Shown here: positions 5,052 through 60,327 of the stretch, one piece after another | Numbering within the stretch: the stretch's first letter is position 1 | Layout: each line of letters opens with the position of its first letter | NCBI RefSeq assembly: GCF_963678975.1 | Contig: NC_089276.1 | Span: forward strand, 32,380,368 to 32,444,367 | Length of the DNA stretch: 64,000 bases | From: Dysidea avara | Lineage: Eukaryota > Porifera > Demospongiae > Dictyoceratida > Dysideidae | Direction of reading: 5' to 3' | The notes under the pieces: generated by a model | Told to the model about the DNA's origin: nothing | The model's database searches: none | What the model saw: only the letters and a program-made list of their open reading frames with translations | Translations under genes and position numbers: made by a program

Positions 5052-5179
5052 CAGTGTTGGGACAATTACTTTTTAAAAGTAACTCATTACATATTACTAT
5101 TTCTTACAACTAAAACTATTTAGTTACAGTTACATAATACCAATAAAATAAAGTAACTGTTTAACAATATTACATATTA

Positions 5180-5998
5180 TCAAGACACACGGTAGTGTGT
5201 CGTGCGGCCCAAGAAGCCGGCGTGCCACCCGTGAGTATATTAACAGGAAGAAAGAAAACGCAATATTCACACCTATGTAGCTCTGTGATCCCTTATCCGA
5301 TTGGAACCAAATTTGCTAGAGAGGTGCTGGCCAGCAAGGGGAGTCTACACACCAAATTTGAAGAACATCGCTCCAGCCATTTCCGAGATACGAGCGAATG
5401 TCGTTTTAATTTCTTCGTTTTTTTCTTCTTCTACTTCTTCATTTCGCACATTTCGCACAATCCGCCATAAAACACGAATGTGTGCTCGGATCGGGCTGAA
5501 ATTTGGCACACTTAAAGGGCTCATTAAGGCGGATCTCTGTACCAACTTTGGTAGGAATCCGATGAACATTCACGGAGTTATTACCGATTATTTGCGTAAA
5601 ATAAGGTCGAAGGTCTGTCACGCCTACAGGGTAAACTCCTTTGAGGAATCAGTTGCAAATTGCTATGTAGATGGAGCAACCATCGTAGGAGTGCCTTTTT
5701 GTGGTTTGAAAGGAATCGGGATAAAGACCACGGAGATATGACACAAAACCCGACCTGTGTCTAAATTACGCGAATGATTTTTATGAATAAAAATACTATT
5801 AGTTTTCGTGTCTATCAGGCAAACCGCTTAGAGCAATGAGCTGAAAATCAGTGTGTAGCTGGAATAATCATCATAGAAAGTCCTTGCAGTAGTACAGAAG
5901 AATCGGATTACAAACCACTGAGTTATGATTCGAAAGGCAACTACGTGTAGCAAATGCGAGATCGAGATACTCTAATAGAACAGTCACCCTAATAGAGC
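5180..5998 (+). repeat. Head region of copy 1
   Basis: Begins with a hairpin GACACAC-ggta-GTGTGTC, then a GC-richer stretch GCCCAAGAAGCCGG shared by all four copies. The rest seems to be diverged subunits of roughly 180-200 bp, each ending in a GAGTTATGAC or GAGATATGAC motif and containing a 'gcctac...ggtaaaccgctt' motif. A 146-codon open frame runs 5301-5741 and stays partly open in copies 2 and 3, but it shows no known domain. The head ends with the palindrome CTCTAATAGAG and runs into the satellite. Confidence 0.7.
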
Positions 5999-8900
5999 AT
6001 TCAGCTACGTTTATAACTTACTCCATTACAGAATTATATTACATTGCAGGATATTCTGTACGGAATTCAGCTACAAACAGTTAATCTGATAGACAATTCA
6101 GCTACATGCAAGTCACCCTGTAGAGAGTTCATCTAGAAACAAGTCACCCTGTATCAGCTAGAAGAAGTCACCTTGTAGAGAGTTCAGCTACAAAGAAACC
6201 ATCATGTAGAGAGTTCAGCTGCAAACCAATCACAACTCAGCTACAAACAAACATGCCCTGTAAAAAGATCAGCTAAAAGAAGTTACCTTGTAGAGAGTTC
6301 AGCTACAAAGAAATCACCATGTAGAGAGTTAAACTGCAAACAAATCACCCAGTAGAAAGTTCAGCTATGAATAGATCACCCTGTTGAGAGTTCAGTTAGG
6401 AAAAAGTAATCCTGTAGAGAGATGAGCTAGAAGTATCACCTTGTAGAAAGTTCAGCTACAAACAAATCATCTGTAGAGAGTTCAGCTACAAACAAATCAC
6501 CCTGCAGAGAGATCAGCTAGAAGAAGTCACCTTGTAGAGAGTTCAGCTATAAAGAAACCACCATGTAGAAAGTTCAGCTGCAAACAAATCCCCTGTAGAG
6601 AGATCAGCCAGAAACAAGTCATCCTGTAGAGAGTTCAGCTAGAAGAAGTCACATTGTAGAGAGTTCAGCTACAAAGAAACTACCATGTAGAGAGTTCAGC
6701 TGCAAACAAATCACCCTGTAGAGAACTCAGCTACGAACAAATCGCCCTGTAGAAAGATCAGCTAGAAGAAGTTACTATGTAGGGAGTTCAGCTACGAACA
6801 GATCACCCTGTAGAGAGTTCAGCTACAAACAAATCACCCTGTAGAGAGTTCAGTTACAAAGAAACCACCATGTAGAGAGTTCAGCTGCAAAAAAATCAAT
6901 CACTCTGTAGAGAGTTCAGCTAGAAGAAGTCACCTTGTAGAGAGTTCAGCTGCAAATAAATCACCCTGTAGAGAATTCAGCTACAAACAAATCACCCTGT
7001 AGAAAGATCAGCTAGAAGAAGTTACCTTGTAGAGAGTTCAGCTACAAAGAAACCACCACGTAGAGTGTTCAGCTGCAAACAAATCACCTGTAGAGAGTTC
7101 AGCTAGAAACAAGTCACCTTGTAGAGAGATCAGCTAGAAACAAGTCACCCTGTAGAGAGTTCAGCTAGAAGAAGTCACATTGTAGAGAGTTCAGCTACAA
7201 AGAAACTACCATGTAGAGAGTTCAGCTGCAAACAAACACCCGGTAGAGAACTCAGCTACAAACAAATCGCCCTGTAGATAGATCAGCTAGAAGAAGTTAC
7301 CTTGTAGGGAGTTCAGCTAAAAAGAAATCATCATGTAGAGAGTTCAGCTGCAAACAAATCATCCTGTAGAGAGTTCAGCTATGAAAATATCACCCTGTAG
7401 AGAGTTCAGCTAGAAGAAGTCACCTATTAGAGAGTTCAGCTACAAAGCAACCACCATGTAGAGAGTTCAGCTGCAAAAAAAATCAATCACTCTGTAGAGA
7501 GTTCAGCTAGAAGAAGTCACCTTGTAGAGAGTTCAGCTGCAAATAAATCACCCTGTAGAGAATTCAGCTACAAACAAATCACCCTGTAGCAAGATCAGCT
7601 AGAAGAAGTTACCTTGTAGAGAGTTCAGCTACAAAGAAACCACCATGTAGAGAGTTCAGCTGCAAACAAATCACCTGTAGAGAGTTCAGCTAGAAACAAG
7701 TCACCCTGTAGAGAGATCATCTAGAAGAAGTCACCATGTAGAGAGTTCAGCTACAAAGAAACCGCCATGTAGAGAGTTCAGCTGCAAACAAATCAGCCTG
7801 TACAGAGTTCAGATACAAACAAATCACAGATCAGCTGGAAACAAGTTGCATTGTAGAGAGATCAGGTAGTATAAGTTACCTTGTAGAGAGTTCAGCTACA
7901 AAGAAACCACCATGTAGAGAGTTTAGTTGCAAACAAATCACCCAGTAGAAAGTTCAGCTATGAACAGATCACCCTGTTGAGAGTACAGTTAGAAACAAGT
8001 CATCCTGTAGAGAGATCACCTAGAAGTATCACCTTGTAGAGAGTTCAGCTACAAACAAATCACCCTGTAGATAGATCAGCTAGAAGAAGTTACCTTGTAG
8101 GGAGTTCAGCTACAAAGAAATCACCCTGTAGAGAGTTCAGCTACAAAGAAATCATCATGTAGAGAGTTCAGCTGCAAACAAGTCATCCTGTAGAGAGTTC
8201 AGCTATGAAAAGATCACACTGTAGAGAGTTTAGCTAGAAGAAGTCACCTATTAGAGAGTTCAGCTACAAAGCAACCACCATGTAGAGAGTTCAGCTGCAA
8301 AAAAAATCAATCAGTCTGTAGAGAGCTCAGCTAGAAGAAGTCACCTTGTAGAGAGTTCAGCTGCAAATAAATCACCCTGTAGAGAATTCAGCTACAAACA
8401 AATCACCCTGTAGCAAGATCAGCTAGAAGAAGTTACCTTGTAGAGAGTTCAGCTACAAAGAAACCACCATGTAGAGAGTTCAGCTGCAAACAAATCACCT
8501 GTAGAGAGTTCAGCTAGAAACAAGTCACCTTGTAGAGAGATCATCTAGAAGAAGTCACCATGTAGAGAGTTCAGCTACAAAGAAACCGCCATGTAGAGAG
8601 TTCAGCTGCAAACAAATCAGCCTGTACAGAGTTCAGATACAAACAAATCACAGATCAGCTAGAAACAAGTTGCATTGTAGAGAGATCAGGTAGTATAAGT
8701 TACCTTGTAGAGAGTTCAGCAACAAAGAAACCACCATGTAGAGAGTTTAGCTGCAAACAAATCACCCAGTAGAAAGTTCAGCTATGAACAGATCACCCTG
8801 TTGAGAGTTCAGTTAGAAACAAGTCATCCTGTAGAGAGATCACCTAGAAGGATCACCTTGTAGAAAGTTCAGCTACAAACAAATCACCTGTAGAGAGTTC

Positions 8901-9435
8901 AGCTACAAACAAATCGCCCTGTAGATAGATCAGCTAGAAGAAGTTACCTTGTAGGGAGTTCAGCTACAAAGAAATCACCCTGTAGAGAGTTCAGCTACAA
9001 AGAAATCATCATGTAGAGAGTTCAGCTGCAAACAAATCATCCTGTAGAGAGTTCAGCTATGAAAAGATCACACTTTAGAGAGTTCAGCTTGAAGAAGTCA
9101 CCTTTTATAGAGTTCATCTACAAAATAACCACCATGTAGAGAATTCAGCTACAAACAAATCGTCCTGTAGAGAGACTAGCTAGAAACAAGTCACCCTGTA
9201 GACAGATCAGCTAGAAGAAGTTACCTTGTAGAGAGTTCAGCTGCAAACAAATCACCCTGTAGAGAATTCAACTACAAACAGATAACCCTGCAGAGAGTTC
9301 AGCTAGAGTCAAGTCACCCTGTAGAGAGAATCCTGTAAAGAGTTCATCCACGTACAAGCAGATCACCCTGTAGAGATTTCAGCTACATTTCAAGTCACCC
9401 AGTAGAGAGATCAGCTGCAAATTATCCTGTGGGGA
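5999..9435 (+). repeat. 30-31-bp satellite array, copy 1
   Basis: Tandem monomers of the type GTAGAGAGTTCAGCTACAAA followed by CAAATCACCCT. At least four recurring monomer variants occur (ACAAAC, AGAAGAAGTTACCTT, ACAAAGAAACCACCAT, GCAAAC endings), arranged in mixed order. There are no unique spacers. The first monomers intergrade with the end of the head, whose last bases (AGTCACCCTAATAGAGCATT) already look like a monomer. Confidence 0.92.
7350..9110 (+). repeat. Higher-order duplication inside the satellite
   Basis: A block of about 820-855 bp is repeated in tandem. The rare phrase AATCAGCCTGTACAGAG occurs at 7791 and 8615, exactly 824 bp apart, with the same irregular monomers around it. 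The second block carries one extra monomer near 8890. This points to a recent unequal exchange or slippage within the array. Confidence 0.8.
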
Positions 9436-9610
9436 TTAATTGACATGTAATAAATATATGCTCTCTTTTTATATTATGAACTCTTGATATATGCATTATA
9501 TATATAATTTGTACATTTACTGATAAAATCAGAATGAGTTAAAGTGTTTATAAAATCTGCTTCATCTTTTTCTTTTTCCTGTGGTAAAGAAAAATATATA
9601 GGTTAAAAAG

Positions 9611-9641
9611 CCCCAAAGCTAGCCATAGGCCATCTTTGGGG
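9611..9641 (+). other. Tail hairpin, copy 1
   Basis: A small stem-loop with CCCCAAAG pairing with CTTTGGGG, and GCC-ata-GGC in the middle. It lies just upstream of the terminal foldback. Equivalent hairpins lie at 35844-35880 and 60328-60358, with changed bases on both sides of the stem. Confidence 0.7.
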
Positions 9642-9666
9642 TATACAAATACAAAAAGAAGTGAAA

Positions 9667-9996
9667 TCTAATCAAAAACAGCCAAGCTGTAAAAAAAGGA
9701 GTGCGGCCTTTAAAAAGGCTATAGTGAAAAAAGATGTGAAATCCAAGGTGGCGGCCAAGAAATGGCTGTGATGGTAGGTTAATGGTAAAAATTTTAATAA
9801 CGACAATTCAGGTGAATTTTGTGCCAATTGACCAAGCGGCACCAAATTCACCTGAATTGTTGTTATTAAAATTTTTACCATTAACCTACCATCACAGCCA
9901 TTTCTTGGCCGCCACCTTGGATTTCACATCTTTTTTCACCATAGCCTTTTCAAGGGCCGCACTCCTTTTTTTACAGCTTGGCTGTTTTTGATTAGA
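9667..9996. repeat. Terminal foldback hairpin, copy 1
   Basis: A near-perfect inverted repeat: TCTAATCAAAAACAGCC on the left is mirrored by its complement ending at 9996. Arms are about 150 bp with a short loop near 9830. Both strands contain nearly the same meaningless open frame because of the palindrome. Confidence 0.92.
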
Positions 9997-11282: not shown

Positions 11283-14200
11283 AAAAATTCTGCATAATGT
11301 AATTGTTTTGATTTACCTCTTAATCAAGTTTCATTCGCTATTACTTATATAGTAACACATGTACAAATTGATTGTGGGTATTAGTTTTATTACTAATGGT
11401 TGTCCTATTAAGTCAGTTATTCACTATTTGGAAAGTTTCAAACTATAGATATTGAAGTTTTCCTGTGTATTGGGTAAACAATAGTGACATGGCTAATACT
11501 ATGCACATCTGGAATGTATTGAGTTTTTGTTTCAAAAGCCGAGATGGAACAGAGCTTAACAACAGAGCTGCTGCTTATAAAACTATTCATCAAGGAAGGT
11601 AAAATAGAAATTTTAAGTTTGAATAGTGGTCAGGCTTAATATACTGAACAGGAATTGTTGGAGACAATGGAGAATAGTTAGCCGGAGGGAACATTAAGCT
11701 ATCTGCACGGGAATTAGTTCATGTTAAAGAGAGTAGACAGTTGCTATGACATCGTGTACTAGGACAAAATCCCAGGATAACTAGCAGGAAAAGTGAAATA
11801 GTATAATATGGCCTGGATTTTAGAGGACAGTTTGTAATGATGTATATAGTGGAATATGACGATTAGTGTTAAACTGAGGTACTAAAATGTATGCAACACG
11901 CTGCTTTGTCAGTGGCAATAATCAAAGGTATAGTATCTCACAAGACGAAAATTTAATTTTTACAATTTTGTGCTCCATACAAAGAACTGGATGACATTTG
12001 CTACCCACATTCAGAGTTGCTGTGGTAAGTATGTACCGCAATAAGTAAATAATTCACTGAGTACCTGGCACAGGGTTACTTATTTGTGACTGGATCTACG
12101 AAAACCGTTCTTATCGCCCAAGACAGGAAGTTTGATTTTTTCACACAAACACAAAGCTTAATGAATGCGCTATCAAGTTTCACCACCACAGTCGACCAGA
12201 GTAAAGTGGTCTGCTTTTGCTGGCTGCTTTTTTAGAGCACAGTGGCGAGCCGCACGAGTGGTCTGGGGTCTTGATGGATCCCTGGCCAACCAGGAGATGG
12301 CTGTGTGTGGCTGTACAGCTCCGTGGCGTTGGACAATAACCTGTGCTGTAAATTTCCTTTCATTTTAGCCAGTTCTGAGCCCTGAATGGCCTATAACTTG
12401 GCCTAATTCATCCCAGCACGTTTCTTTTCAATTTTTGAACACCATCTTGCCCTCCTTCCAGGGCCCCCGCCTCCCACCCTTCTGGAGCTCGCCTGATACA
12501 GACAACCTCGGTTTAAAAACTACCTAAATGGCGGGAAACTTAGCTGTTAACTACTTCTTCAGTAGATGATCAGGAAGGTAAGAAATTGTTGTGAAACGTG
12601 TGAAAATTTGGTATGCGTAGCTACCACCATTGGCCAGCTACAACACACTGAATATTTAAAACTGATGTTTCTCGATACTTTTAAATGGGCAATAAGACCG
12701 ATTTTCCCAGAGACAGTCACATCTGAAAAAACAGACTGAGAATTATCAATTTTCAATTTCAAACTGCCCTACCACCGAGGAGCAACCCTACCTCATAGTG
12801 TTTTCGGATGCATAGTCTGTCTATGCTGTTAGTATGGAAACATCTGAACTTCTCACCATCTGGGTGATGGGTGTCAAAATTTTCTGCAGCCTTAATGAAT
12901 TATATCAAGCTTTCTAGCCATTTCCAGTCATCAGTCCCTGAATGTTTGTTACCAGCAGTTGTCAATTATTATTTCATCCACAACTTCAAAGTATTGTTCT
13001 AAGCTACGTATGCACCACGGGAGGAAGCTATAATTGTCAAAATTTGAATTTGCCACTCATGTTCCACAGCAGCTTAAAAGTTTTTACTAGATCACCCTAC
13101 AACACCATCATGTTGAAATATACAAAAAACACAAACCAAAAAAGCATAAATTATTTCATTTTTGACTGCTGGTACACTACATCATGTAAAATCACAACTG
13201 TATTACTACCAATAACTTTGTATGGACCATTAAAATTAGGTGACCAGTGTGGTATCAGAAGTACTGGAAAGGATTTTTGCACCATTGAGAAAATCCTGTG
13301 GGAAAATTTTGACACTCTTTACCCAGATGGTGAAAAGTCTCAGATACTTTCCAGACTAACAACATAGACTTACTATGCATCTAACCTTATCACATCACTA
13401 TGAGGAAGAGTTGGCTTTTCTAGTTTTGGCTGGTAGGGCAGCTTGAATTCAGAAATTTGTGTTTTGTTTCCTGATATTTAAAAGAAAGCAACTCTGTGTA
13501 GGAACCAGGTGAATCATTTGCTTATTACTTTTAAACTGCAATCGCTTTAGTTAGAAAAATGGTATGCATAAATGTTTTGATATTTGGAAGATAATGAGTT
13601 CTTTAAAATCCACTAAAAGATCTGCTAGCAGGTTCTTAAAATAGTTTTTAATACACTGCTAGCAAAAAGTTCTCAAGCATTGCAAATCTCACTTTCGATC
13701 ATTGATTTGCTATGCTCTCCCAAGCATATTACAGGCTAATAGCCTGCTGTGGGCAAAGTCACCCAAGCAAACAAGAGTTTGACTACCTCATTCTTTTTAA
13801 AAGCATCCCTAATTATGTGAGGTGTCGTTTAACATCGTAGCTAAGTTTGTCAGGATCAATGGAGAAATCTGATATCATGGAAAACAGTTAAGCTCTTACT
13901 GCTACACTTCAACACTTGCTTCTACCAGCTATCACACACTAGTAACTGCCTGAATTTATTAGAGTCATGAGGTGTAAAATGATGTGAGCTTAAAACAGCA
14001 CTTAACTTTTTAAATTTCTTTTGGTGATAGATAACTAACAAAGTTGAGGAAGGTTCGCTAAAGTAGATTATTTCAAGGTAGATTTTTGGGGTGGAGTCTT
14101 TTGTCAATAATAAATTCGGGCAGTTACTCGTGCATGACAGCTGGCATAAGCAAGTGTAGCAAATAGTTTTGTAGTGATTATGTAGCAAAGTGTATTAGAA

Positions 14201-16200: not shown

Positions 16201-16460
16201 GACAATATTTCATTAGTTTTGTATAGAAAACTAAGAGATTTTATATAACAAAGTACATCATCTGAATCCTCATACAAAGTGTAATCAAATGAGCTAACAA
16301 TCTTCAGTGATCCCCACCATTTTTTGGTCATGTATTTCAACTATTGGGGTTCATATGATATTTCAAACTAAACTATGTAAATTATGTAACACAAGTAGTG
16401 CCTAAAATGCTGATGTCCTCCTCTGATGGAGTAAAATATATTAGGAAAATGTCTATAATG

Positions 16461-16518: not shown

Positions 16519-18088
16519 AAATTTTTTATCGAAGAACTTCTTTCTATGGCTGTTAGTCAAGTTTCACTCACTTTTTATATAGTAATACATGTACAAACTG
16601 ATTGTGGGTTTTAGTTTTATTACTAATAGTTGTCTAAATAACTCAGTTATTTACTAATTGGAAAGTTACAACTACACATACAAACAGTAGACACTTTATA
16701 AATGTATAAAAAGTGATGTGTGAGCAATGATGACAGCAGATTTGATTTTTCACTTATAACACAAAGCCACATAAATCTGCTAGACTTAAGTGGTCTACTT
16801 TCACTGGCTGCTTTTCCCAAGCACAGTAGTGATCTATTTCAGCTGTCTGGGGCTCTAATGGAGTTCTGCCAGTCTGAGAATGGCTGTATGTGACTATACA
16901 GTGCCATGGTGTTGAATAAAGACCTGTGCTGTAAATGTCCTTTCATTTTAGCCAGTTTTGAAATATGAGTGGACCATAACTTCGCGTGGTTCATCCCTAC
17001 ACCTTCCTCTTTAAGATTGGCAGCCTCTGACCCTCCTACAGGCCCCTCCCTGCCTCCCACCCCCTAAGAGCTTCCCTGATACAGTCAACCCTGTGTTATA
17101 AACTATCTAGTGTTATAAACTATCTAACATGGCAGGAATGTCTTCTGTTGGCTACTTGTGCAGTGGGTGTTCTGGAAGAAAAGTAATTGGTGTAAACTTG
17201 TGAAGAATTGGTGCATGTGCAAAGTTTCAATGATTGACAAGCTACAACTCTCTAATACTTAAAACTGGAATTTCTCAATACTTTTTGAATAGGCAATAAT
17301 ACTAGTTTTCAGAGATGCAGTCACCAATGTTCTATTGTACACCTGAGTAGCAAAGGAGATTATGTAATGCATTTTTTGGATTTAAATGGAACGTTGTCAT
17401 TAAAAAGCTGTGTTTACCTTACCAACGGATGTTTACAAGTAATATCTCTTGTTACTAGCCTTGTATGTTAATAACCCACACTTAAACACTCACTAGTGTG
17501 GGTTCTATACAAAAAAACACTCACTACTTATACACTCACTCACTACTTTCACAGCTAGTTTGATTTTGGTCCACTTTGGTTTTAGGTGAATTTGTAATAA
17601 ACGCTAGTAAGATGTGCATATTTTCATGAGTTTTATAAACTGATCTTGGCATGACAAAGTTTAATATAATAATCAGAAGTATGGCTGGCTCCTCCACAAG
17701 GTGGGGGGAGGGGGGATTTGCCCCAAATTCCCCATCCTGGATCCGTCATTGCAGTTACATGAGACAGCAGAGAAGGATGGGAGTGATTTATGCACTCTTT
17801 AAATGAGTTATGCAAATTGTGATGGACTAAAATGTGTGAATTATGTGACAAAGGTTGGCATCATTGTTATGTTAAGAGTATACATACTTGTCTAGTACTA
17901 GAATTGCTACTATACATGTGAAAATGTTTCATTAGTTTTACACCCTGTTCACACTACAATAAACAACCGTGCTAGCGCGGTTCATCCCGGTTTGGTTCAG
18001 TTCACGTTGACAGTGTAAACAGGAAGCGAACCACACTACTACAACCATGCTCAGTGCACCAAGAACTGCCGTGCCAGCTCGGTTCAGT

Positions 18089-18096
18089 TATAAATA
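18089..18096 (+). promoter_or_regulatory. Probable TATA box of the Myb-like gene
   Basis: TATAAATA lies 37 bp before the start codon at 18133, a sensible distance for a short leader. The upstream stretch 17941-18080 carries repeated GGTTCA/GGTTTGG words that may be transposase-binding subterminal motifs. Confidence 0.45.
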
Positions 18097-18132
18097 TCCG
18101 GATCATGATTTGTTTTACTGAGTAGAAACAAA

Positions 18133-18948
18133 ATGGCGTCGTCGTCGTCTGTGTGGAAAGACGAAGAGGTGTACAAGCTTATTGAGCTTTGGGGAGATGA
18201 CGTTATTCAAAGCCAATTAGAAGGATGTAAACATAACAGAGAAGTGTATGAGAAGATCTCCAAATCCATGAAAGAAGCTGGTTTCAACAAAACCAGTGAC
18301 CAATGTCGAGATAAAGCTAAAAAGCTAAAGGCAGATTATCGTAAGACGAAAGATAAGAACAAACAGACAGGTAACAAAAGAAAAACATGTAAATATGGAG
18401 AAGCATTAGCAGAAGTGCTGGCTCATAGACCGGCTACAAAACCACCGTTAGTTATTGACACATCATGTGAAGGTATATACGACACTGATGGTGAAGGTAC
18501 TACTGGCAATGGCTGTAACGGTAGACCTGTAGATGTGCCAGTAGATGGCACTGAAACAAGTGATGATACAGCATCTATTGCTGCCACGGATGTGTCAAGT
18601 GTTCCAGCAGATGAGTCAAGTGAAGGAAAAGCTAAAGTAGAAATCAAAACAGCAAAGAAGGTTCCAAAAAAGCGTGGAAGAGAGGACAGATTGCAAACCA
18701 TCATGGGTGGAATCGTTACCCAGATTATCGACTCTCAGTTGCAAAGTGATGAGCGTTACTTGGAATTAGAAGAGAAGCGGATGCGACTTGAGGAGGAAAA
18801 TAAAAAGAGAGAAGAAAGAATGAGAAAGGACGAAATGGATTTTCAGTTACGTATGATGTCCATGTTGGTCCAGTCTCAGAGTTCTGGTTATCCTTTTCCT
18901 ACACCATACAATGGATCATTCTATGGACATGACAGTCATGATCAGTAG
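18133..18948 (+). CDS. Harbinger Myb/SANT-like DNA-binding protein
   Basis: A 271-residue accessory protein of the Harbinger transposon. In this superfamily such Myb-like proteins bind the transposon ends and help bring the transposase to DNA and to the nucleus. Residues about 7-98 form a trihelix/Myb-type domain: W8 and W20 in the first helix, then KHNREVYEKISKSM and TSDQCRDKAKKLKADYRK as later helices. A low-complexity acidic/serine-rich linker follows (about 105-165), then a basic KKVPKKRGRE stretch (about 174-183) that could be a nuclear-localisation signal. A highly charged coiled coil (about 205-235) probably mediates multimerisation. The start is the first ATG after a TATA box, in a good context (AAAATGG). 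It converges with the transposase gene, with 82 bp between stops. Function is inferred from the family. Confidence 0.9.
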   Translation: MASSSSVWKDEEVYKLIELWGDDVIQSQLEGCKHNREVYEKISKSMKEAGFNKTSDQCRDKAKKLKADYRKTKDKNKQTGNKRKTCKYGEALAEVLAHRPATKPPLVIDTSCEGIYDTDGEGTTGNGCNGRPVDVPVDGTETSDDTASIAATDVSSVPADESSEGKAKVEIKTAKKVPKKRGREDRLQTIMGGIVTQIIDSQLQSDERYLELEEKRMRLEEENKKREERMRKDEMDFQLRMMSMLVQSQSSGYPFPTPYNGSFYGHDSHDQ

Positions 18949-19030
18949 TACTGAACTTGGGTACGTTTTGTTTTGTGTTATTGATTTAACATGTATGTGT
19001 TTCATTACATAATAACAATCTCTATACATG

Positions 19031-20485
19031 CTATTCAGGTACTGGGTTGTTTTGACAATAATTAATTAATGCCTGTCTGATATTATCTGTGCTTGAAGCA
19101 GTTGACGGCCGATCCTCTATGTCTGCCTCATCATTTGTCATTACACCTTGAAGCCAATCTTCATCAATATCACTTCCATGTATCTCACATATGTTGTGCA
19201 GAACACAACAAGCAGCTATGACTTCAGAAATGTTTTCTGGCCACATTTCATTTGCTTTCAACAGACGGCGCCATCGAGCTTTTAATCGACCAAATGCTAT
19301 CTCTGAAACTATCCTGGTTCTTGACAGTCGATAATTGAAACATTTCTGATCTGCAGATAACGCTGAATGATAAGGATATGGTTTTAACAACCATGGAAGC
19401 AATGGATAGCCAGCATCTCCAACTAAAAACACTGGTACATCTACTCCATTGATAGATCGTGGGTGTCCTTGCAATAAAGTCCCATTATAAACCTTATGAT
19501 AAAGTTCTGAGTTACAAAACACACGTGCATCATGCACACTTCCAGGCCATCCTACATTAATGTCTCGGAATAGGTAGTCACTGTCTACAACAGCCTGAAT
19601 CAGGATGGAGTACCACCCCTTTCGATTATAGTAGTCCGTATGGTTTAATTTTGGAGCCTGAATTGGAATGTGACTCCCATCAATTGCCCCAGCACACTGT
19701 GGAAAATTACACTTATCTTCAAATCCTTGAATGACATTTTGTAAATGACTACCAATTGGAAAACTTATGTACTTCTTCAATAGTACCTTTATTATTGCAC
19801 GTACTGTTTCATGTATTATACAACACACAGTACTACGTCTAATCCCAAACAAATGAGAAATTGTTCGGTACTCAGATGGAGTAGCTAAAAACCACAGCGT
19901 TACTGCTACCCTCTTCCTTACTGTAATGGATTTACGCATTGCTGTGTCTGAGTGTTGTATTTCTGGATGCAGCTGTTCACAGATGTACAAGAATGTTGAT
20001 TTATTCATTCTGAAATTCTGCATAAAATCTTGTTCATTAAATGTCTCTAGCACCACAAAATCCCACCAATATTGAGATCTGCACAAAAAAATCAAACACA
20101 AAGTTAACAGCAGATCTGTACACTATACATCTTTACAATTATAATAAAGTGAATGCATCACATACGGTGTATGGTGGTGGCAAGTGTGTCTAGCTAGTTG
20201 TCATAATAATATTACAGCAATTAACAACCTTGGACGGACCCAAGATAGTTTTGGGGAAGGTAGAGTTGCTAAAAACAATAAATTAGACACTAGAATAAGC
20301 AGCTGTGCACGCTGTGAACTCTTACGCCGTCGATACTCCCGTAACGATCGATTTATCCGCTGGCTCGTGTGCTGGTGTCTCCTTTTCTTCATCTGCAGGC
20401 TTTGATTCAACTGATAAAAATGAAACCTCGCTATGTTATTCATTATTAATACGAGCTCTGTAAAAACAGTGACAAGAGGCTGCAC
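19031..20485 (-). CDS. Harbinger DDE transposase (two exons)
   Basis: The main exon (19031-20078) encodes a HARBI1-like nuclease that would cut and join the transposon ends. By residues of the unspliced 356-codon frame, a helix-turn-helix region lies about 57-100 and the DDE triad is D141 (GAIDGSHIP), D229 (VGDAGYPL) and E267 (SEIAFGRLKARWR). LHNIC near 301-305 is also typical. That frame opens without a proper N-terminus. A 150-bp GT-AG intron (20079-20228, acceptor TTTTTTTGTGCAG) joins it in frame to an upstream exon ending at 20229, giving WVRPRSQYWWDF, which matches the WVRP motif expected there. With the ATG at 20485 the protein is 434 residues; the ATG at 20443 would give 420. Exon 1 is basic and arginine-rich. 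I see no stop or frameshift. Confidence 0.88.
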
Positions 20486-20924
20486 GTGACATAAGGTTGT
20501 TACGCACGTGACACAATATTGCTGTCATGGTTCAGTTGATATGGATTTTCGTGTGAACGCGGACGATTATTGGAGCGGTTTGATTTTCTTCCAACATAGA
20601 TCGGTTCGGTTGTTGTCGTGTGAACAGGGTGTTAGTATAGAAAACTAAGAGCTTTAGAAATACATAAACAACATATGGTGGGGATCACTGAAGATTGTTA
20701 GCTCATTTGATTACACTTTGTGTGAGGATTCAAATGATGTACTTTGTTTTCAACTATTGGGGTTCATATGATATTCCAAACTAAACTATGTAAATTATGT
20801 AACACAAGTAGTGCCTAAAATGCTGATGTAGTGATGTCCTCCTTTGATGGAGCAAAATACAATAGAAAATGTCTAAAATGTATAGATCAGCAAAGACATA
20901 ACTTTTTGTGTATCATTGATCACA

Positions 20925-32991: not shown

Positions 32992-33830
32992 TCAAGACAC
33001 ATGATAGTGTGTCGTGCGGCCCAAGAAGCCGGCATGCACACCATGGGTATATTGACAGGGGTATATTGACAGGAAGAAAGAAAACATCATTTTCACACTT
33101 TTGTATCTTGGTGATCCCTTATCCGATTGGAACCAAATTTGCTACAGCGTTGCCCGCCAGCCAGGGGAGTCTACATACCAAATTTGAAGGAAATTGCTCC
33201 TGCTATTTCCGAGATACGAGCTGTCAAATTTTCGCTTTTTATTCGTCTTTTTTTATTCTTCGTGTTATTGCACACTTGCAAAAATTGCTATAAAACACGA
33301 ACTCGTGCTCCAATCGCCTTGAAATGTGGCACACAGAAAGGGAGTCCAAAGGCGAATCCTAGCATCAAATGTGGTACAAATCCAATGAATGGTTCGGGAG
33401 TTATGACTGATTATTCGGGTAAAACAAGATCGATTTTTTGTCATGCCTACAGGGTAAACCGCTTCATGGAATGAGTTGACAATTGCTATGTACATGAAGT
33501 AACCATCGTAGGAGTGCCTTTTGGTGGTTTGAAAGGAATCGAGATAAAGACCACGGAGATATGACACAAAATCCAACCTGTGTCACAATTACGCGATCGA
33601 TTTTTATGAATAAAAAAAGTATTAGTTTTTACGCCTACTAGGCAAACCGCTTAGAGCAATGAGCTGAAACTCGGTGTATAGCTGGAATAATCTTCATAGA
33701 AAGTCCTTGCAGTAGTACAGAAGGATCGGATTACAAACCACTGATTTATGATTCGAAAGCCAACTCCGTGTAGCAAATGCGAGATCGAGATACTCTAATA
33801 GAACAGTCACCCTAATAGAGCATTCAGCTA
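32992..33830 (+). repeat. Head region of copy 2
   Basis: Same layout as the head of copy 1, with a short internal duplication of GGTATATTGACAGG near 33045-33070. The open frame corresponding to 5301-5741 runs 33127-33474 and then stops. The head ends with CTCTAATAGAACAGTCACCC and passes into satellite monomers. Confidence 0.75.
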
Positions 33831-35720
33831 ATTTATTTACTCCATTATAGAATTCTGTTACATTACAAGGTATTCTGTAGGGGGTTCAGCTGCAAACAGT
33901 TAGTCTTATAGACAGTTCAGCAAGAAGCAAGTCACCCTATAGAGAGTTCAGCTACGAATATATTGCTGTAGTGATTCAGAATATTACAAGTCACACTGAA
34001 GAGAGTTCAGCTATAAACAAGTCATGCACCCTGTAGAGAGTTCAGCTACAAACAATCCACTCTGTAGAAATTCTGCTACAAACAAGTCTTCATGCAGAGA
34101 GTTTAACAACCAAAATCCACCATGTAAAGACTTCAGCTTTACTAACAAGTTACTCTGTAGAGAGATCAGCTAGAAAGAAGAGAGAGCTCAGCTAGAAAAC
34201 GTCACCTTGTAGAGAGTTCAGCTACCAATAAATCACATTGTAGAGAGATCAGATAGAAGAAGCCACCTTGTAGAGGGTTCAGCTGTGAAGTGATCACCCT
34301 GGAGAGAGTTCAGCTACAAAATAATCACCCTGTAGAGAGTTCAGCTACAAAGAAACCATCCTGTAGAGAGATCAGCTAGAAACAAATTACCTGTAGCGAC
34401 ATCAGCTACAAAGAAACCATCCTGTAGAGAGTTCAGTTACAAACAAATCACACTGCGGAGAGTTTGGCTACAAAAAATCACCATGTAGAGTATTCAGCTA
34501 CAAACAAAGCACCTTGTAGAGTGTACAACTAGACACAAGTCACCCAGTAGAGAGATCAGCTACAAGAAGTTACATTGTAGAGAGATCAACTAGAAGAAAT
34601 CACCTTGCAGAGAGTTCAGCTACAAAGAAACCATCCTGTACAGAGTTCAACTACAAACAAATCACCCTGTAGAGAGTTCAGCTACAACCACATCAGAGTT
34701 TGGCTACACAGAAACCATCATGTAGAGAGTTCAGCTGCAAACAAATCATCCTGTTGGGAATTCAGCTACAAACAAATCGCCCTGTAGAGAGATCAGCTAG
34801 AAGAAGTCACCTTGTAGAGAGTTCAGCTACAAAAAACCACCCTGTACAGAGTTCAGCTGCAAACAAGTCACCCTGTAGAGAGATCAGGTACAAAGAAACC
34901 ATCCTGCAGAGAGTTCAGCTACAAACAAGTTACCCTATAGAGAGATCAGCTAGAAACAAATTATCTTGTAGAGAGTTCAGCTACAATCAAATCACCCTGT
35001 AGACAGTTCAGCTACGAAAAGATCACTGTGTAGATAGTTCAGCTATAAGAAGTCACCTTGTAGAGAGTTCAGCTACAAACAAATCACCCTGTAGAGAATT
35101 CAGCTACAAATAAACCGCCCTGTAGAAAGATCAGCTAGAAGAAGTTACCTTGTACAGAATTCCGCTACAAAGAAACCATCATGTAGAAAGTTAGACTAAA
35201 AACAAGTCACCTTGTAGAGAGATCAGCTAGAAGAAGTTACCTTGTAGAGAATTCAGCTACAAAGAAACCATGATGTAGAGAGTTCAGCTACAAACAAATC
35301 ACCGTGTAGAAAGATCAGCTAGAAGAAGTTACCTTGTAGAGAATTCAGCTACAAAGAATCTATCAAGTTGAAAATTCAGCTACAAACAAGTCACCCTGTA
35401 AAGAGATCAGCTAGAAGAGGTTACCTCATAGAGAGTTCAGCTACAAAGAAACCATCATGTAGAGAGTTCAGCTACAAACAAATCACCCTGTAGAGAGATC
35501 AGCTACAAAAAAGTTACCCTGTAGAGATATCAGTTACGTAGATACAAGTTACCTTATAGGGATCAGCTACAAACAAATCACCCTGTAAAAATATGTGTTG
35601 GAAACAAATCACCATGTAGAGAGTGCAACTAGAAACAAGTCACCCTGAAAAGAGCTGAGCTACAAACAATGGGAGTTTCAGCTACAGTTCAGTTATGTAT
35701 AAGAAGTCACCTTATTATCT
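33831..35720 (+). repeat. Satellite array, copy 2
   Basis: About 1.9 kb of 30-31-bp GTAGAGAGTTCAGCTACAAA-type monomers, more diverged than in copy 1, especially at both ends. Open frames at 34605-35002 arise only from the monomer period. Confidence 0.9.
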
Positions 35721-35843
35721 ACAGTATGATTTTCTTTCATTGTTAAATATACAAATATTTTTAATCAGACAAAAAACTATAGACAACATTTCTTCCTTTG
35801 TTCCACAGTTCCTGCAGAAAAGAAAAAAAAACAAGTTAAAAGG

Positions 35844-35880
35844 AAGCACCAAAGCCAGTTAATGGCTGGCTTTGTGGCTT
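35844..35880 (+). other. Tail hairpin, copy 2
   Basis: Stem CCAAAGCCAG pairing with CTGGCTTTG around a short loop. Its sequence differs from that of copies 1 and 3, but the pairing is largely kept. Confidence 0.6.
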
Positions 35881-35901
35881 GCAATACAAAAAGAAGTGAT
35901 A

Positions 35902-36228
35902 TCTAAACCAAGCTGTAAAAAAAAAGAGTGTGGCCCCCAAAAAGGCCAGGATGAAAAAAGATGTGAAATCCAAGGTGGCAGCCAAGAAATGGCTGTGATG
36001 GTAGGTTAACGGCAAAAATTTTAATTACGACAATTCAGATGAATTTGCGTTGCCTACTCCACTAGGATTCGGCATCAAATTCTCCTGAATTGTCGTAATT
36101 AAACTTTTCGCCATTAACCTACCATCACAGCCATTTCTTGGCCGCCACCTTGGATTTCACATCTTTTTTCATCCTGGCCTTTTTGGGGGCCGCACTCTTT
36201 TTTTACAGCTTGGCTGTTTTGGTTTAGA
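35902..36228. repeat. Terminal foldback hairpin, copy 2
   Basis: TCTAAACCAAGCTGTAAAA mirrored at the right end ACAGCTTGGCTGTTTTGGTT. Long arms, loop near 36055. Same family as 9667-9996. Confidence 0.9.
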
Positions 36229-36430: not shown

Positions 36431-36748
36431 TCTTATCAAAAACAGCCAAGCTGTAAAAAAAGGAGTGCACCCTTGAAAAAACTATGGTGAAAAGATGTGA
36501 AATCCAAGGTGGCGGCCAAGAAATGGTAGGTTAATAGTAAAAATTTTAATAACGACAATTCCGGTGAATTTGGTGCCGCTTGATCAATTGGCACAAAATT
36601 CACCTGAATTGTCGTTATTAAAATTTTACCATTAACCTACCATCGCAGCCATTTCCTGGCCGCCACCTTGGATTTCACATCTTTTTTCACCATAGCCTTT
36701 TCAAGGGCTGCACTCCTTTTTTTTACAGGTTGGCTGTTTTTGATTAGA
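36431..36748. repeat. Terminal foldback hairpin, copy 4
   Basis: TCTTATCAAAAACAGCC mirrored by GGCTGTTTTTGATTAGA. The left arm lacks a few bases (GCTGTGA in AAATGGCTGTGATGG) that the right arm keeps. It joins the satellite directly. Confidence 0.9.
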
Positions 36749-37675
36749 TTACGAACAGATCACCCTGTAGAGAGTTCAGCTACAAACAAATCACCCTGTA
36801 GAGAGTTCAGTTACAAAGAAACCACCATGTAGAGAGTTCAGCTGCAAAAAAATCAATCACTTCGTAGAGAGTTCAGCTAGAAGAAGTCACCTTGTAGAGA
36901 GTTCAGCTGCAAATAAATCACCTTGTAGAGAATTCAGCTACAAACAAATCACCCTGTAGAAAGATTAGCTAGAAGAAGTTACCTTGTAGAGAGTTCAGCT
37001 ACAAAGAAACCACCATGTAGAGAGTTCAGCTGCAAACAAATCAACTGTAGAGAGTTCAGCTAGAAACAAGTCACCCTGTAGAGAGATCAGCTAGAAACAA
37101 GTCACCCTGTAGAGAGTTCAGCTAGAAGAAGTCACATTTTAGAGAGTTCAGCTACAAAGAAACTACCATGTAGAGAGTTCAGCTGCAAACAAACACCCTG
37201 TAGAGAACTCAGCTACAAACAAATCGCCTGTAGAAAGATTAGCTAGAAGAAGTTACCTTGTAGGGAGTTCAGCTACAAACAAATCACCCTGTAGAGAGTT
37301 CAGCTACAAAGAAATCATCATGTAGAGAGTTCAGCTGCAAACAAATCATCCTGTAGAGAGTTCAGCTTTGAAAAGATCACCCTGTAGAGAGTTCAGCTAG
37401 AAGAAGTCACCTTTTAGAGAGTTCAGCTACAAAGCAACCACCATGTAGAGAGTTCAGCTGCAAAAAAAGCAATCACTCTGTAGAGAGTTCAGCTAGAAGA
37501 AGTCACCTTGTAGAGAGTTCAGCTGCAAATAAATCACCCTGTAGAGAATCCAGCTACAAACAAATCACCCTGTAGAAAGATCAACTAGAAGAAGTTACCT
37601 TGTAGAGAGTTCAGCTACAAAGAAACCACCATGTAGAGAGTTCAGCTGCAAACAAATCACCTGTAGTGAGTTCAG
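36749..37675 (+). repeat. Satellite, copy 4, forward half
   Basis: Monomers in the same orientation as copy 1 and with the same rare variants (AAAAAAATCAATCACT, GCAAATAAATCACC), so this piece is closely related to the copy 1 array. Confidence 0.9.
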
Positions 37676-38160
37676 CTGAACTCTCTACAAGGTAACTTCT
37701 TCTATCTGATCTTTCTACAGAGCATATTTGTTTGTAGCTGAGTTCTCTACAGGGTGATTTGTTTGCAGCTGAACTCTCTACATGGTAGTTTCTTTGTAGT
37801 TTAACTCTCTACAATGTGACTTCTTCTAGCTGATCTCTCTACAAGATGACTTGTTTCTAACTGAACTCTCTACAGTGTCATCTGTTTATAGCGGAACTTT
37901 CTACTGGGTGATTTGTTTGCAGCTGAACTCTTTGCATGATTGTTTCTTTGTAACTGAACTCTCTACAAGGTAACTTCTTCTAGCTATTCTCTTTACAGGG
38001 CAATTTGTTTGAGCTGAACTCTCTACATGATGGTTTCTTTGTAGCTGAACTCTCTATTAGGTACCTTTTCTGGCTGATCTGACTACAGGGTGACTTGTTT
38101 GTAGCTGAATTCCCTACAGAATAACTTGCAATGTAATATAATTGAGTAAATTATAAATGC
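37676..38160 (-). repeat. Satellite, copy 4, reversed half
   Basis: Monomers run in the opposite direction. The switch is centred on the perfect palindrome GAGTTCAGCTGAACTC (37668-37683). Confidence 0.9.
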
Positions 38161-39274
38161 AGCTGAATACTTTATTAGGGTGACTGTTCTATTAGAGTAT
38201 CTCGATCTCGCATTTGTTACACGTAGTTGTCTTTCGAATCATAACTCAGTGATTTGTAATCCGATTCTTCTGTACTACTGCAAGGACTTTCTATGGTGAT
38301 TATTTCAGCTACATACTGATTTTCAGCTCGTTGCTCTCAGCGGTTTGCCTGGTAGACACGAAAACTAATCGTTTTTTTTTAATTCATAAAAATCGATCGC
38401 ATAATTTTGACACAGGTCGGGTTTTGTGTCATATCTCCATGGTCTTTATCCCGATTCCTTTCAAACCACAAAAAGGCACTCCTACGATAGTTGCTCCATC
38501 TACATATCAATTTTCAACTGATTCCTCAAAGAAGTTTACCCTGTAGGCGTGACAGACCTTTGACCTTATTTTACGCAAATAATTGGTCATAACTCCGTGA
38601 ATGTTCATCGGATTCCTACCAAAGTTTTTTTTTCTTTTTTTTTTCCCGGGTTTGATGGACTGCCCTTGCCTACCACCCCCAGCACATAAATGGCCTGTGC
38701 TGGATAAACCGGGACTTTCTTAGTCCACGGCAAACTGAGACTCTGCCCGAATCAGCTCCACGATTGGGGGAGTCTTAACATAGTGACCGATGGATGAGCG
38801 GGCTCCGCGGATGCATTGTATGGAGGACTGCAAGAGAGAGAAAGATAGACAGCACCTTAACCACCCCATGACAACAGAGTAATCATCGCCCCACTAATTT
38901 GAAAGTTGACGAGCCAAGCGTTGATACCTAAGTTGGTACAGGATCCGCCTTAATGTGCCCTTTAAGTGTGCCAAATTTCAGCCCAATCCGAGCACGCATT
39001 CGTGTTTTATGGTGGATTTTGCGAAGTGTGCGAATTGAAGTAGAAGAAATAAACGAAGAAATTAAAACAAAATTTTGTTAGCTAGTATCTCGGAAATGGC
39101 TGGAGCGATGTTCTTCAAATTTGGTGTGTAGACTCCCCTAACTGGCCAGCACACCTGTAGCAAATTTGGTTCCAATCGGATAAGGGATCACAGAGCTACA
39201 AAGGTGTGAAAATTGCGTTTTCTTTGTTCCTGTTAATATACTCACGGGTGGCACGCCGGCTTCTTGGGCCTTGA
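38161..39274 (-). repeat. Head region of copy 4
   Basis: Reverse complement of the head of copy 1, closely similar, with an insertion of about 300 bp at 38627-38928. It starts at 39274 with TCAAGGCCCAAGAAGCCGG, lacking the small GACACAC hairpin. The open frame of the other heads is interrupted here by the insertion. Confidence 0.75.
38627..38928 (-). mobile_element. SINE-like retroposon
   Basis: About 300 bp absent from the other heads. Read on the minus strand it ends in CCCGGG plus a long A-rich tail (A-runs broken by a G), and AAGTT lies on both sides (38622-38626, 38930-38934) as a probable short target duplication. GGTGGTTAAGGTGCTG on the minus strand resembles an A-box-like promoter word, but a B box is not clear. 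No coding capacity. Poly(A), size and duplication suggest a SINE. Confidence 0.6.
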
Positions 39275-46960: not shown

Positions 46961-47147
46961 ATGAAATAAATCCGAAAGGGAAGACTGTCCATGAAGTATA
47001 TGAAGAGTCACCATACCTGTATTTTAGGCTGCCAAGAAGAAACCATCTCAGAACAAAGTTTATACATGCGGAAATTTAATACAGACTTAATTTAACTCTC
47101 AATTCTTGCATCCCGGTTGCTTTTTGTATAAGTTAAAGCATAGACTT
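46961..47147. other. Short unassigned stretch
   Basis: No gene or repeat recognised. Confidence 0.4.
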
Positions 47148-48025
47148 GCTCGTGCTATATGAAAAATAAAGTACTTGGTGTTTGGCCTCGATGCTAATAA
47201 AGCACGAGGCGAAATAAAGCATATAGCGCTTGGCCTCGATGCTAATAAAGCACAAGGTGAAACCTTGTGCTTTATTAGCATGAAGGCCAAGCGCCGAGCG
47301 CTTTATTTTTCATATGGCATGAGCAAGGCTATGCTTTAAATGATTTATGGAACTTTCTAGTCATGTAGTTTCACCCAATACACTATATAGGACTCATAAT
47401 TAACATGCGTTGCACGAACTATTAGCAGCCTGAATGCACACCAACTAGTTTAACAAAGTAACTCATGCGTAGTTCACCATAGTTCGGTATGAAAGATGTT
47501 CATTGCATATTTTGGCAGGTTTTGCTCGCAACTCACAATTGATTCTATTGTGAGTCACATGGCAAAATATCTCCATGATATCTCCAGGACTTGTCCATTT
47601 ACATTAACAAACGTAACAGCAATGTTACCTTCTCCCACCCATCATCGAAGCATTTAGATATGCCTATAAAAGATATCCAGTGGTAGAACTCGTATTGGCT
47701 GGGGTGATTGATCACTCAGCATGGCGAGGCTATCAGCCTTCATCTACGTGGGTGATTAGTCATACTCGATGAGTCCCGCAGGCTCCCCGCAGGCTCCCCG
47801 CAGGCTATTAGCCTGCACTAAGGCATGTGGGCAACTGTGCTTCATTGCCCACAAAGAGTGCTTTATAGGACTGCAAAGAGTGCTTTATTCGTTCAATAAA
47901 GCACTCTTTGCAGTGCAATAAAGCACTCTTTGTGGTCATGAAGCACTGTTGGCCGGCTGAGAGTGTACTTTATGAACTTTAAAGCACAGTATTTCCTTTG
48001 ATCTCACCCACACAAATGTTTTTGC
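47148..48025 (-). mobile_element. Relative of the TTATAG-flanked element, reversed
   Basis: Reverse complement of much of 27742-28460 (AAGCACTCTTT clusters at 47850-47940, TGAGTCACAT region at 47550-47570). At its left end the terminal part is present in both orientations, forming a foldback (47148-47345) around AAGCACAAGG-tgaaa-CCTTGTGCTT. Exact ends and target duplication are not clear. Confidence 0.6.
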
Positions 48026-49102: not shown

Positions 49103-49249
49103 TCTAATCCAAAACAGCCAAGCTGTAAAAAAAGGGTGCGGCCCTCAAAAAGGCTATGGTGAAAAAAGATGTGAAATCCAAGGTGGCGGCCAAGAAATGG
49201 CTGTGATGGTAGGTTAATGGTAAAAATTTTAATAACGACAATTCAGGTG
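49103..49249 (+). repeat. Half of a terminal foldback (torn)
   Basis: One arm only, from A|TCTAATCCAAAACAGCC to ATTCAGGTG. The missing arm is at 60384-60565, near-identical and in the same direction, which is only possible if the DNA between has been inverted. Confidence 0.85.
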
Positions 49250-49799
49250 TATAGTTAAACTCACCAATTGCGACTAAATTCCTTCAACACGAAAAGACAA
49301 GTAATGAGACAACCTAGGAGACAACAGCCACACAAGCCTATTCTGGTGCATTTATTTAGTAGTAATATAAATTTTAAAGGCGTTTATTTACAACAGGACA
49401 TAATTACGCGTCCCTCTATTGTCTCTGTACATACTTGCCTTTTCTTTACTATTCTCATTTCATTTCACAAGATCTCTTGGCAGGGGCGTAGCTTCTTCAC
49501 TTGAATTAGTCAATGCTTGAAGTAGATTGAGATACTCTAATAGAACAGTCACATTTCTACAAGTGCCATATTTTTATATTGTAAAGTGTGTAAGTAGCTA
49601 GTAATTTAAACTTATACAATCTGATGCTAAGCAGAAGTTGTAACTATGCTAAATATTGATTGTTGTGTTACAGCTGTTTTGTGACTGCTCTAATAGAGTA
49701 TTTTGATCGTTTCAATGCAGTACAAGATGAAAGGCAAAGTGTTGTTAAGGGTTTACTAGTTAAAATGGGTGTTAGTTGACTGCAGTTGCATGCCACTAA
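49250..49799. other. Stretch without a gene
   Basis: Contains the GAGATACTCTAATAGAAC motif at 49530-49552 and a GACTGCTCTAATAGAGTA motif at 49682. The frame 49268-49504 shows no domain. Confidence 0.45.
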
Positions 49800-49990
49800 C
49801 AGGGCCGTCCAGAGAAAATAGAGGGCCCAGGGAAAAGAGTTAAAGAGGGGCCCAGGGGCAAGGAAGGGTCTAGATCCTGACTGCTCTATTAGAGTATATC
49901 GATCTTTCTTTAAACAGGTATTCAAGTGGCCCCTTTTGGGCTGTGGTAGGGGGCAAAATACCCCAGTTACCCCCAATGTGGGTGGCCCTG
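49800..49990. mobile_element. 191-bp hAT MITE
   Basis: Ends CAGGGCCGTCC and GGTGGCCCTG, with a perfect 8-bp duplication GCCACTAA (49792-49799, 49991-49998). It contains the CTCTATTAGAGTAT motif near 49883. Confidence 0.85.
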
Positions 49991-50114
49991 GCCACTAAAA
50001 TTACAGTTATATTTTAATATTCTGTCACTGTAATCTGGGGTTTCTGTCAAAACCATGGAAACTCACCTACTGTTATCAACAGTGCATTGCTTATTCTAAC
50101 AAAAAGTATTGAAA

Positions 50115-50743
50115 TCCCATCCAAAAACAGCTTATAGCTGTAAAAAAAGTGCACATCCAAGTAAAGCAGAGTTAACTGCGACAAAAAGTAATGATATCAT
50201 TATGCGGCCATGTGCGAGGTGTGCAAGTTGTAAAATTAATATTAGCTAATCAGATAATACAATGTTATTGTTAAAGTGTTAATGAGAACTATGTGATGCT
50301 GCTAGTTTTTAAGTGTGTGAGCATCTTCATAAATGCCACATAAATTTAATTCTCAATTAAGCAATGTGTATAGATTCTCTGATAGTAATAAATAGTTTGA
50401 GTTTGGCCGCCTTTCCTGTATACAGCAATGCTACGAACAAAGGAAAGGTGGCCAAACTCAAACTATTTATTACTATCAGAGAATCTATACACATTGCTTT
50501 ATTGAGAATTAAATTTATGTGGCATTTATGAAGATGCGCACACACTTAAAAACTAGCAGCATCACATAGTTCTCATTAACACTTTAACAATAACATTGTA
50601 TTATCTGATTAGCTAATATTAATTTTACAACTTGCACACCTCGCACATGGCCGCATTATAATATCATTACTTTTTGTCGCAGTTAACTCTGCTTTACTTG
50701 GACGCACACTTTTTTTACAGCTATAAGCTGTTTTTGGATGGGA
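50115..50743. repeat. Giant foldback, 629 bp
   Basis: Inverted arms of about 300 bp: TCCCATCCAAAAACAGC at the left, its complement at 50743, centre near 50425. Bordered A50114|TC...GA|T50744, the same context as the head-satellite-hairpin elements, and with the same subterminal plan (small ACAGC/AGCTGT stem, then AAAAAAAGTG). It looks like a solo relative of their terminal hairpin. Confidence 0.88.
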
Positions 50744-57114: not shown

Positions 57115-57157
57115 TCAAGACGTCGGGCCCAAGAAGCCGGCGCGTAACACCCGTGAG

Positions 57158-60215: not shown

Positions 60216-60327
60216 TTTCTGTAATCAATATATGTATTATATATATAATTTGTACATTTACTGATAAAATATTTAAAGTACATCTACTTCTCTTCCTGTG
60301 GTAAAAAAAAAAGATAGGTTAAAAATG

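Follow-up and report, generated by a model that had tools for sequence, protein, structure and literature searches.

A probable Helitron lineage with giant 3' palindromes in the genome of the sponge Dysidea avara

How would a mobile element that inserts at A|T sites and ends in a palindrome of several hundred bases be moved, and to which group of transposons does it belong? The question is raised by a stretch of 64,000 nucleotides of the Dysidea avara genome (contig NC_089276.1, positions 32,380,368 to 32,444,367; the whole stretch is called the window below). A preliminary description, made from the letters alone, had listed four copies of such an element in the window, here called type A, had taken them for a non-autonomous family and had offered two readings, a rolling-circle-like element or a foldback element with an AT duplication. 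We consider it quite probable that type A and a second subfamily found here, type B, form a non-autonomous lineage of the Helitron superfamily with a giant 3' palindrome, which would be moved in trans by the rolling-circle transposition of a RepHel element.

A type A element starts with TCAAG and a short hairpin, and consists of a head, a satellite with 30-31-bp units and very variable length, a unique stretch (about 250 bp) and, at the 3' end, a foldback of about 330 bp. The bar in A|TC...GA|T marks the junctions with the flanks. Coordinates, start, satellite unit, foldback length and borders are as the preliminary description gave them, and the copies are placed as follows.

5180 to 9996, plus strand: type A copy 1, with head, satellite, unique 3' stretch and foldback, bordered A|TC...GA|T
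6066-9328, plus strand: satellite of copy 1
9667 to 9996, plus strand: terminal foldback of copy 1, 330 bp
32992 to 36228, plus strand: type A copy 2, foldback at about 35902-36228
36431 to 39274, minus strand: type A copy 3, whose foldback (36431-36748) adjoins the inverted satellite; 5' hairpin deleted
57115 to 60565, plus strand: larger piece of type A copy 4, running to the foldback centre; satellite broken at 59256-59771 by another repeat
49103 to 49249, minus strand: remaining outer foldback arm of copy 4, set apart by an inversion

The foldback of copy 1 has a folding energy of -183.4 kcal/mol as against a mean of -36.8 for shuffled sequences, none of which (0 of 100) folds as well. In the best alignments that include the head, copy 3 is 91% identical to copy 1 (head only), while copies 2 and 4 are 78% and 71% identical over head and satellite; at this degree of divergence the type A layout has lasted over time. 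The four copies share their ends, but two of them depart from this layout. In copy 3 the satellite is partly inverted and the unique stretch that otherwise separates it from the foldback is absent; copy 4 has about 400 extra bases in the head, a foreign repeat in the satellite and a foldback halved by the inversion that splits it. The extra bases of copy 4 (57115-57570) separate its outer 5' end from a second, inner head start that is decayed, and this doubled head start recalls the multiple 5' termini of FoHeli elements (PMC5148889; this and the other papers cited here were available in part, and what is said of them refers to those parts).

The joined flanks of all four window copies align with paralogous empty sites without any insertion or deletion at the junction; gaps further away from it are present in three of the five alignments. 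The preliminary description had located an empty site for every copy within the window, and the junction alignments bear this out.

16238 to 16239: empty site of copy 2
16440 to 16441: empty site of copy 3
11844 to 11845: empty site of copy 4, which has a second one near 29172
59256 to 59771, minus strand: repeat that represents the empty site of copy 1, a more diverged relative, putatively labelled a hAT miniature inverted-repeat transposable element (MITE) in the preliminary description

The same borders were found in other parts of the genome (550.8 Mb in 108 contigs). When the first 301 bp of copy 1 were used as a query, 2,034 candidates came up at first look, and the best 40 were scored. 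The 42 matches listed comprise 40 near-complete ones with 95-100% identity, among them the window's own, and two partial ones (55 bases at 100% and 54 bases at 94%). Hits 2-21, i.e. the 20 loci most similar to the head of copy 1, were fetched. In this sample, picked by likeness to the 5' end, A precedes TCAAG in 20 of 20 copies; the foldback end was located in 19 of 20 (not in L019), and T follows it directly in 19 of 19. The genome-wide search with alignment of flanks, which the preliminary description had proposed as a check, returned the shared start in every fetched copy and A|T flanks at all ends that were located. Together with the four empty sites this corresponds to the A|T insertion without duplication known from Helitron1, to which an AT duplication is formally equivalent in sequence, i.e. 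each junction may be read either way. The base at -2, before the AT, is T in 14 of 20 copies and A in 4 of 20, and the base at +2 is A or T in 17 of 17; two composite loci, L016 and L032, were omitted from the right-flank counts. The 5' hairpin is intact in 19 of the 20 fetched copies. Foldback length is nearly constant, since 18 of the 20 foldbacks measured (18 fetched loci, L035 and copy 1) have 327-331 bp, one has 318 and one 177. The shortest belongs to L017, where the inner palindrome arm is mostly missing and the element is still bordered by A|T. The end found in L032 borders an inverted neighbour: this locus is an inverted composite (head-satellite-foldback-satellite-head), and on its left flank what looks like a foldback end runs straight into TCAAG, which is the junction expected from a circle or a tandem insertion.

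A loose search revealed a fifth 5' end in the window, at 63696 on the minus strand, with the same hairpin and one two-sided base change. The list of four copies therefore holds for type A, but it was not a complete inventory; the overlooked element (c5) belongs to type B and lies in two parts.

60566 to 63696, minus strand: 5' part of the type B copy, beginning A|TCAAGACTCACGGTAGTGAGTCG...
49250 to 50743, plus strand: 3' part of the type B copy, contiguous with the 5' part in locus L039
50115 to 50743, plus strand: terminal foldback of type B, 629 bp, with arms of 304 nt that are 97% complementary, ending GGATGGGA|T
49250 to 60565: inversion of 11.3 kb, with one break near the foldback centre of copy 4 and the other in the body of c5

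In L039 type B is unbroken from its 5' end through to the 629-bp palindrome, which identifies the palindrome at 50115-50743 as the 3' end of type B, and a single inversion explains both the split copy 4 and the split type B copy. For the same reason we rejected this palindrome as a free-standing MITE, and a cut-and-paste mechanism thereby loses its strongest argument, which was a solo palindrome flanked by A|T at either end. The inversion breaks near the foldback centre and so puts a giant palindrome at a rearrangement breakpoint; it is also possible that it is an assembly error at the palindrome. Type B is abundant, as its 5' end has 778 exact matches in the genome and the reversed control none. 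When the genome was searched with the 2,997 bases of type B, 39 of the best 40 matches scored (of 2,633 candidates) covered the whole query and the remaining one covered bases 27-2997, all 40 with 96-100% identity, the window copy included. No open reading frame (ORF) of at least 100 amino acids is present in L039, the longest in L040, a type B locus that ends inside the element, encode 121 and 104 amino acids, and the two ORFs of the type A head (150 and 185 amino acids) have no Pfam match. As far as tested, the family is thus non-autonomous, as had been proposed.

A potential source of mobility was sought with the PF14214 (Helitron_like_N) profile, which gave 230 candidate places in the genome; the best 150 were scored and listed, and six places were fetched, plus the stretch upstream of a seventh. 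One of them, L038, carries a RepHel element that starts at C13:5645522 with the 5' end A|TCATGTACCACGGTAGTGGTACAT. Its sibling on contig C3 is identical at 440 of 440 bases inside this boundary and at 10 of 40 outside, a break that backs the 5' boundary. A frame of 1822 amino acids has DUF6570, Helitron_like_N, PIF1, Pif1_2B and OTU matches and an HUH-like motif, with no endonuclease domain among its Pfam matches (E 0.001); a second frame of 387 amino acids has no Pfam match. The element contains a satellite of roughly 50 bp and apparently ends, at CTAG|T, in a palindrome of 389 bp (L042:1262-1650) with 182 of 183 arm positions complementary and the outer end CACTAG|TTT, a 3' boundary that is inferred from one copy. 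Its RepHel is 24-28% identical to the canonical RepHels of the genome. Architecture and 5' hairpin make it, in our view, a relative of types A and B; a partnership with them is not proven. The preliminary description had advised looking for an autonomous partner with the same ends, and what was found is a RepHel element with the same type of 5' hairpin and a terminal palindrome, but not with identical ends.

The other PF14214 places are of a different kind. L033, L034, L036 and a Helitron nested in L035 are canonical Helitrons that end CTAG|T, with a TC start that was settled for L035 and L036 by comparing the two, and their ends are unlike those of types A and B. The one in L035 (L035:2130-8100, a canonical Helitron1 with a RepHel frame of 1543 amino acids) sits inside a type A element, between an A and a T of its unique stretch, and being a nested element with ends of its own it was rejected as the autonomous partner. 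L037, with a RepHel frame of 801 amino acids, and the upstream piece L041 contain only loose end matches with many errors. A loose match resembling the 5' end (ATCACGGTAGTGAGT) was also seen at L033:9346, about 0.85 kb beyond the canonical Helitron. Judged by eye, the 13 PF14214 places on contig C1 (below 61.6 Mb) are all more than 10 kb away from the 100 type B 5' ends that were listed.

The hairpins at the element ends link the three element types. In all three, the loop of the 5' hairpin occupies nt 12-15. The hairpins of copy 1 are the following.

5184 to 5201, plus strand: 5' hairpin GACACAC-GGTA-GTGTGTC, 4 nt from the 5' end, covarying among type A, type B and the RepHel element
9611 to 9641, plus strand: small hairpin, about 25 nt before the foldback
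9973 to 9985, plus strand: 3' hairpin ACAGC-TTG-GCTGT, 11 nt from the 3' end, behind a T-run

Covariation was analysed in six intact 5' hairpins, five of them distinct (two from type A, two from type B and two from the identical RepHel siblings); copies 3 and 4, which lost this hairpin, were omitted. All 35 pair cells are standard, and 3 of the 7 stem pairs are changed on both sides. The covariation score is reached by only 1 of 500 shuffles, the count of pair types by 7 and that of two-sided pairs by 16, and slid versions of the alignment are 9-54% paired. The same test is not significant on the three window sequences alone (152 of 500 shuffles), while a separate placement test of the changes between copy 1 and c5 gave 0.0097. 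Among the 100 listed type B ends the compensated T...A pair is present in 99 and G...A in one; the search pattern allowed nine combinations at this pair, A...T being excluded. At the 3' end a T-run is followed by a 5-6-bp hairpin and then by 11 nt (type A) or 12 nt (type B) to the end, which agrees with the hairpin 10-12 nt from the end of Helitron1. The strict motif of the 3' hairpin occurs at 11 places in the window, 8 of which are foldback arms (10 arms are present). Hairpins at both ends, a feature of Helitron2, are thus found in types A and B, save for the 5' ends of copies 3 and 4. The small hairpin ahead of the palindrome has three two-sided pair changes in type A, but 71 of 500 shuffles match this; its counterparts, placed by eye, are about 31 nt before the palindrome in type B and about 15-18 nt in the RepHel element. 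TGAAA immediately precedes the palindrome in all three element types, and the pre-foldback stretches of types A and B show marginal similarity (p = 0.046 for the best of eight comparisons). Rfam gave no match over the window at the gathering score, nor over 5100-6100 at E up to 1.

The arms of the palindrome change in concert. In the window copies there are seven columns that vary between copies while both arms of each copy agree (by eye), six of them private to copy 2. In 19 copies from the whole genome 13 columns have the same minority state on both arms (three are gap columns), and no change present in at least three copies is confined to one arm. The mean arm distance is 0.018 within a copy, as against 0.030 (inner arms) and 0.024 (outer arms) between copies. 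Such concordant changes indicate that the arms are probably copied or corrected against each other, be it in each transposition cycle or by slow gene conversion. We may speculate, with rather more doubt than confidence, that this is a Helitron lineage with a self-renewing palindrome, in which the structured 3' end would fold back in each cycle and each arm would serve as the template for copying or repairing the other, much as at the terminal hairpins of linear single-stranded replicons. If this were true the palindrome would be a working part of replication and termination and not cargo.

In terms of mechanism, what was observed (the ends and their target, the covarying hairpins, the concerted changes of the palindrome arms and a RepHel element built in a similar way) would fit the following course of events. 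The RepHel of the palindrome-ended lineage (HUH nuclease, PIF1-type helicase and OTU) would nick a type A or B element at the 5' TC beside the hairpin and displace a single strand; displacement would stop at the structured 3' end, i.e. at the small hairpin and then the palindrome, which would act as the terminator; and the displaced strand would be inserted between A and T without target duplication. Rolling-circle transposition is now favoured over the AT-duplication foldback of the preliminary description, since the genome contains a RepHel element with the same type of 5' hairpin and a terminal palindrome. Given this shared architecture, types A and B are likely members of the Helitron superfamily. 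Several observations weigh against this view. No RepHel element with TCAAGAC... ends was found among the PF14214 places compared, the palindrome of the RepHel element is known from one copy, and no match to it was seen in 701 bp taken from where the C3 sibling should have its 3' end. The 3' CTRR of canonical Helitrons is absent from types A and B, which end TAGA, AAGA or GGGA. The intact 5' hairpin is lost in copies 3 and 4, and one of its pairs is broken in L026. Finally, left and right ends share only a weak inverted repeat (GTGCGGCCC), with p values of 0.026, 0.010, 0.347 and 0.732 for copies 1-4 when each is compared with its own right end (mononucleotide shuffles); over all, 8 of 28 such comparisons are below 0.05, and we rejected the repeat as a terminal inverted repeat (TIR) since it is too weak.

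This weakness also speaks against cut-and-paste transposition by a DDE transposase with a 2-bp AT duplication, as in ISL2EU-like elements of the PHIS superfamily, where the element would read AT|CAAG...TTAG|AT and the foldback would be a long inverted-repeat end. The junctions can be read in this way, ISL2EU does duplicate AT (PMC4482050), and A also precedes the inner borders of the foldbacks seen in the window. However, the two ends form no convincing TIRs; those of ISL2EU usually start GG and here the start would be CA, CT or CC; the ISL2EU target is A|AT|T (PMC4482050), in contrast to the preference for T before AT described above; and the apparent solo palindrome is the 3' end of type B. 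A RepHel element has the similar architecture, and DDE genes with these ends were not searched genome-wide. As only 13 RepHel places were compared as well, we moved our estimate slightly towards the DDE transposase and slightly away from RepHel, and we still find the former unlikely. A tyrosine- or serine-recombinase element (Crypton- or IS607-like) that crosses over at AT would account for the lack of a convincing TIR and for a short identical dinucleotide at both junctions, but it leaves the covarying hairpins and the RepHel relative unexplained; recombinase genes were not searched for, and we consider this explanation highly improbable. A different proposal keeps the rolling circle, and as a sub-model of it has odds that overlap with those of RepHel mobilisation in general: end bypass at the 3' A|T border of an older satellite element may have joined to it a palindromic element of separate origin, the palindrome now being the terminator. 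The small hairpin and the TGAAA ahead of the palindrome in all three element types favour such a composite origin, and in Helraiser, where a hairpin 11 nt upstream of the end acts as a terminator, bypass of the end is documented (PMC4778049). On the other hand, three types with different palindrome sequences share the layout, which makes a single recent capture unlikely, and we regard the composite origin as possible but doubtful.

Types A and B can be compared with the known groups one by one. Canonical Helitrons (Helitron1) start with TC, end with CTRR, have a hairpin 10-12 nt from the end and insert at A|T (PMC5148889). Types A and B resemble them in the A|T target without duplication, in the 5' TC (seen in 20 copies that were picked by similarity to this end) and in the 3' hairpin 11-12 nt from the end, and the RepHel relative appears to end CTAG|T. 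They differ in having a 5' hairpin and a giant 3' palindrome and in lacking CTRR, and the canonical Helitron1 of the same genome (L035/L036) has unrelated ends. Helitron2, which includes FoHeli of Fusarium, has hairpins at both ends, asymmetric inverted repeats and compensatory changes (PMC5148889; PMC3627910). Here the likeness is in the two hairpins, the compensatory changes in the 5' hairpin and the 5' T, and FoHeli1/2 start with TCAG plus a hairpin. However, the target is A|T and not TTTT|T/C or TNAT, the giant palindrome is an additional difference, and the asymmetric terminal inverted repeat, which in Helitron2 forms the 5' hairpin with 8-15 bp, has only a weak 9-bp match here, located downstream of and outside the 5' hairpin. 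Helentrons and HINEs (DINE-1, oyster Cg_HINE) contain satellites and short palindromes and occupy TT or T-rich sites (PMC4067079; PMC7492417). Types A and B are likewise non-coding, with an internal satellite, structured ends and no duplication, and the RepHel relative shares the OTU domain with Helentrons; yet the target is A|T instead of TT, the 3' palindrome has 330-629 bp instead of 5-10 bp, and the RepHel relative has no endonuclease among the Pfam matches of its frame. With ISL2EU and Spy (PHIS superfamily) there is a similarity in AT-rich targets with AT duplication or none. ISL2EU differs in TIRs and target motif, a DDE partner not having been searched genome-wide, and Spy inserts into AAATTT without duplication (PMC11304231), whereas types A and B have neither its AAA|TTT target nor its TIRs.

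Each of these subgroups has at least one defining feature that types A and B fail to show. What they combine is the target and the 3' hairpin spacing of Helitron1, a 5' hairpin like that of Helitron2, satellites like those of HINEs and a giant 3' palindrome. The parts of the cited papers that were available describe no such palindrome for Helitron1, Helitron2, Helraiser, HINEs, ISL2EU or Spy, which agrees with the preliminary description, where it was called not canonical for Helitrons. Among the open-licence papers listed in our searches, no title or opening of an abstract concerns a Helitron with a terminal palindrome of hundreds of bases; repeat databases were not covered, so that earlier cataloguing is possible. 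How Helitrons are recognised and terminated, and how they gain satellites and new 3' ends, is poorly understood, and an abundant lineage with palindromes of 330-629 bp offers natural copies in which the role of 3' structure can be tested.

A few further observations concern other sequences. Three sequence patterns run on viral contigs gave no match, the four matches of a fourth (L001-L004) are in coding DNA and were dismissed as chance, and one pattern run on genome contigs gave no match. The window contains a Harbinger element (17941-20631), whose ORFs are Myb/SANT-like and DDE_Tnp_4 and for which an empty site is present near 41146; it was rejected as a partner on account of its TTA duplication and different TIRs. 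ORFs similar to hAT transposases are found at 53601-56105, the second of them with a Dimer_Tnp_hAT match, and two further self-complementary palindromic repeats, of different sequence, are located at 47133-47339 and 47829-47954.

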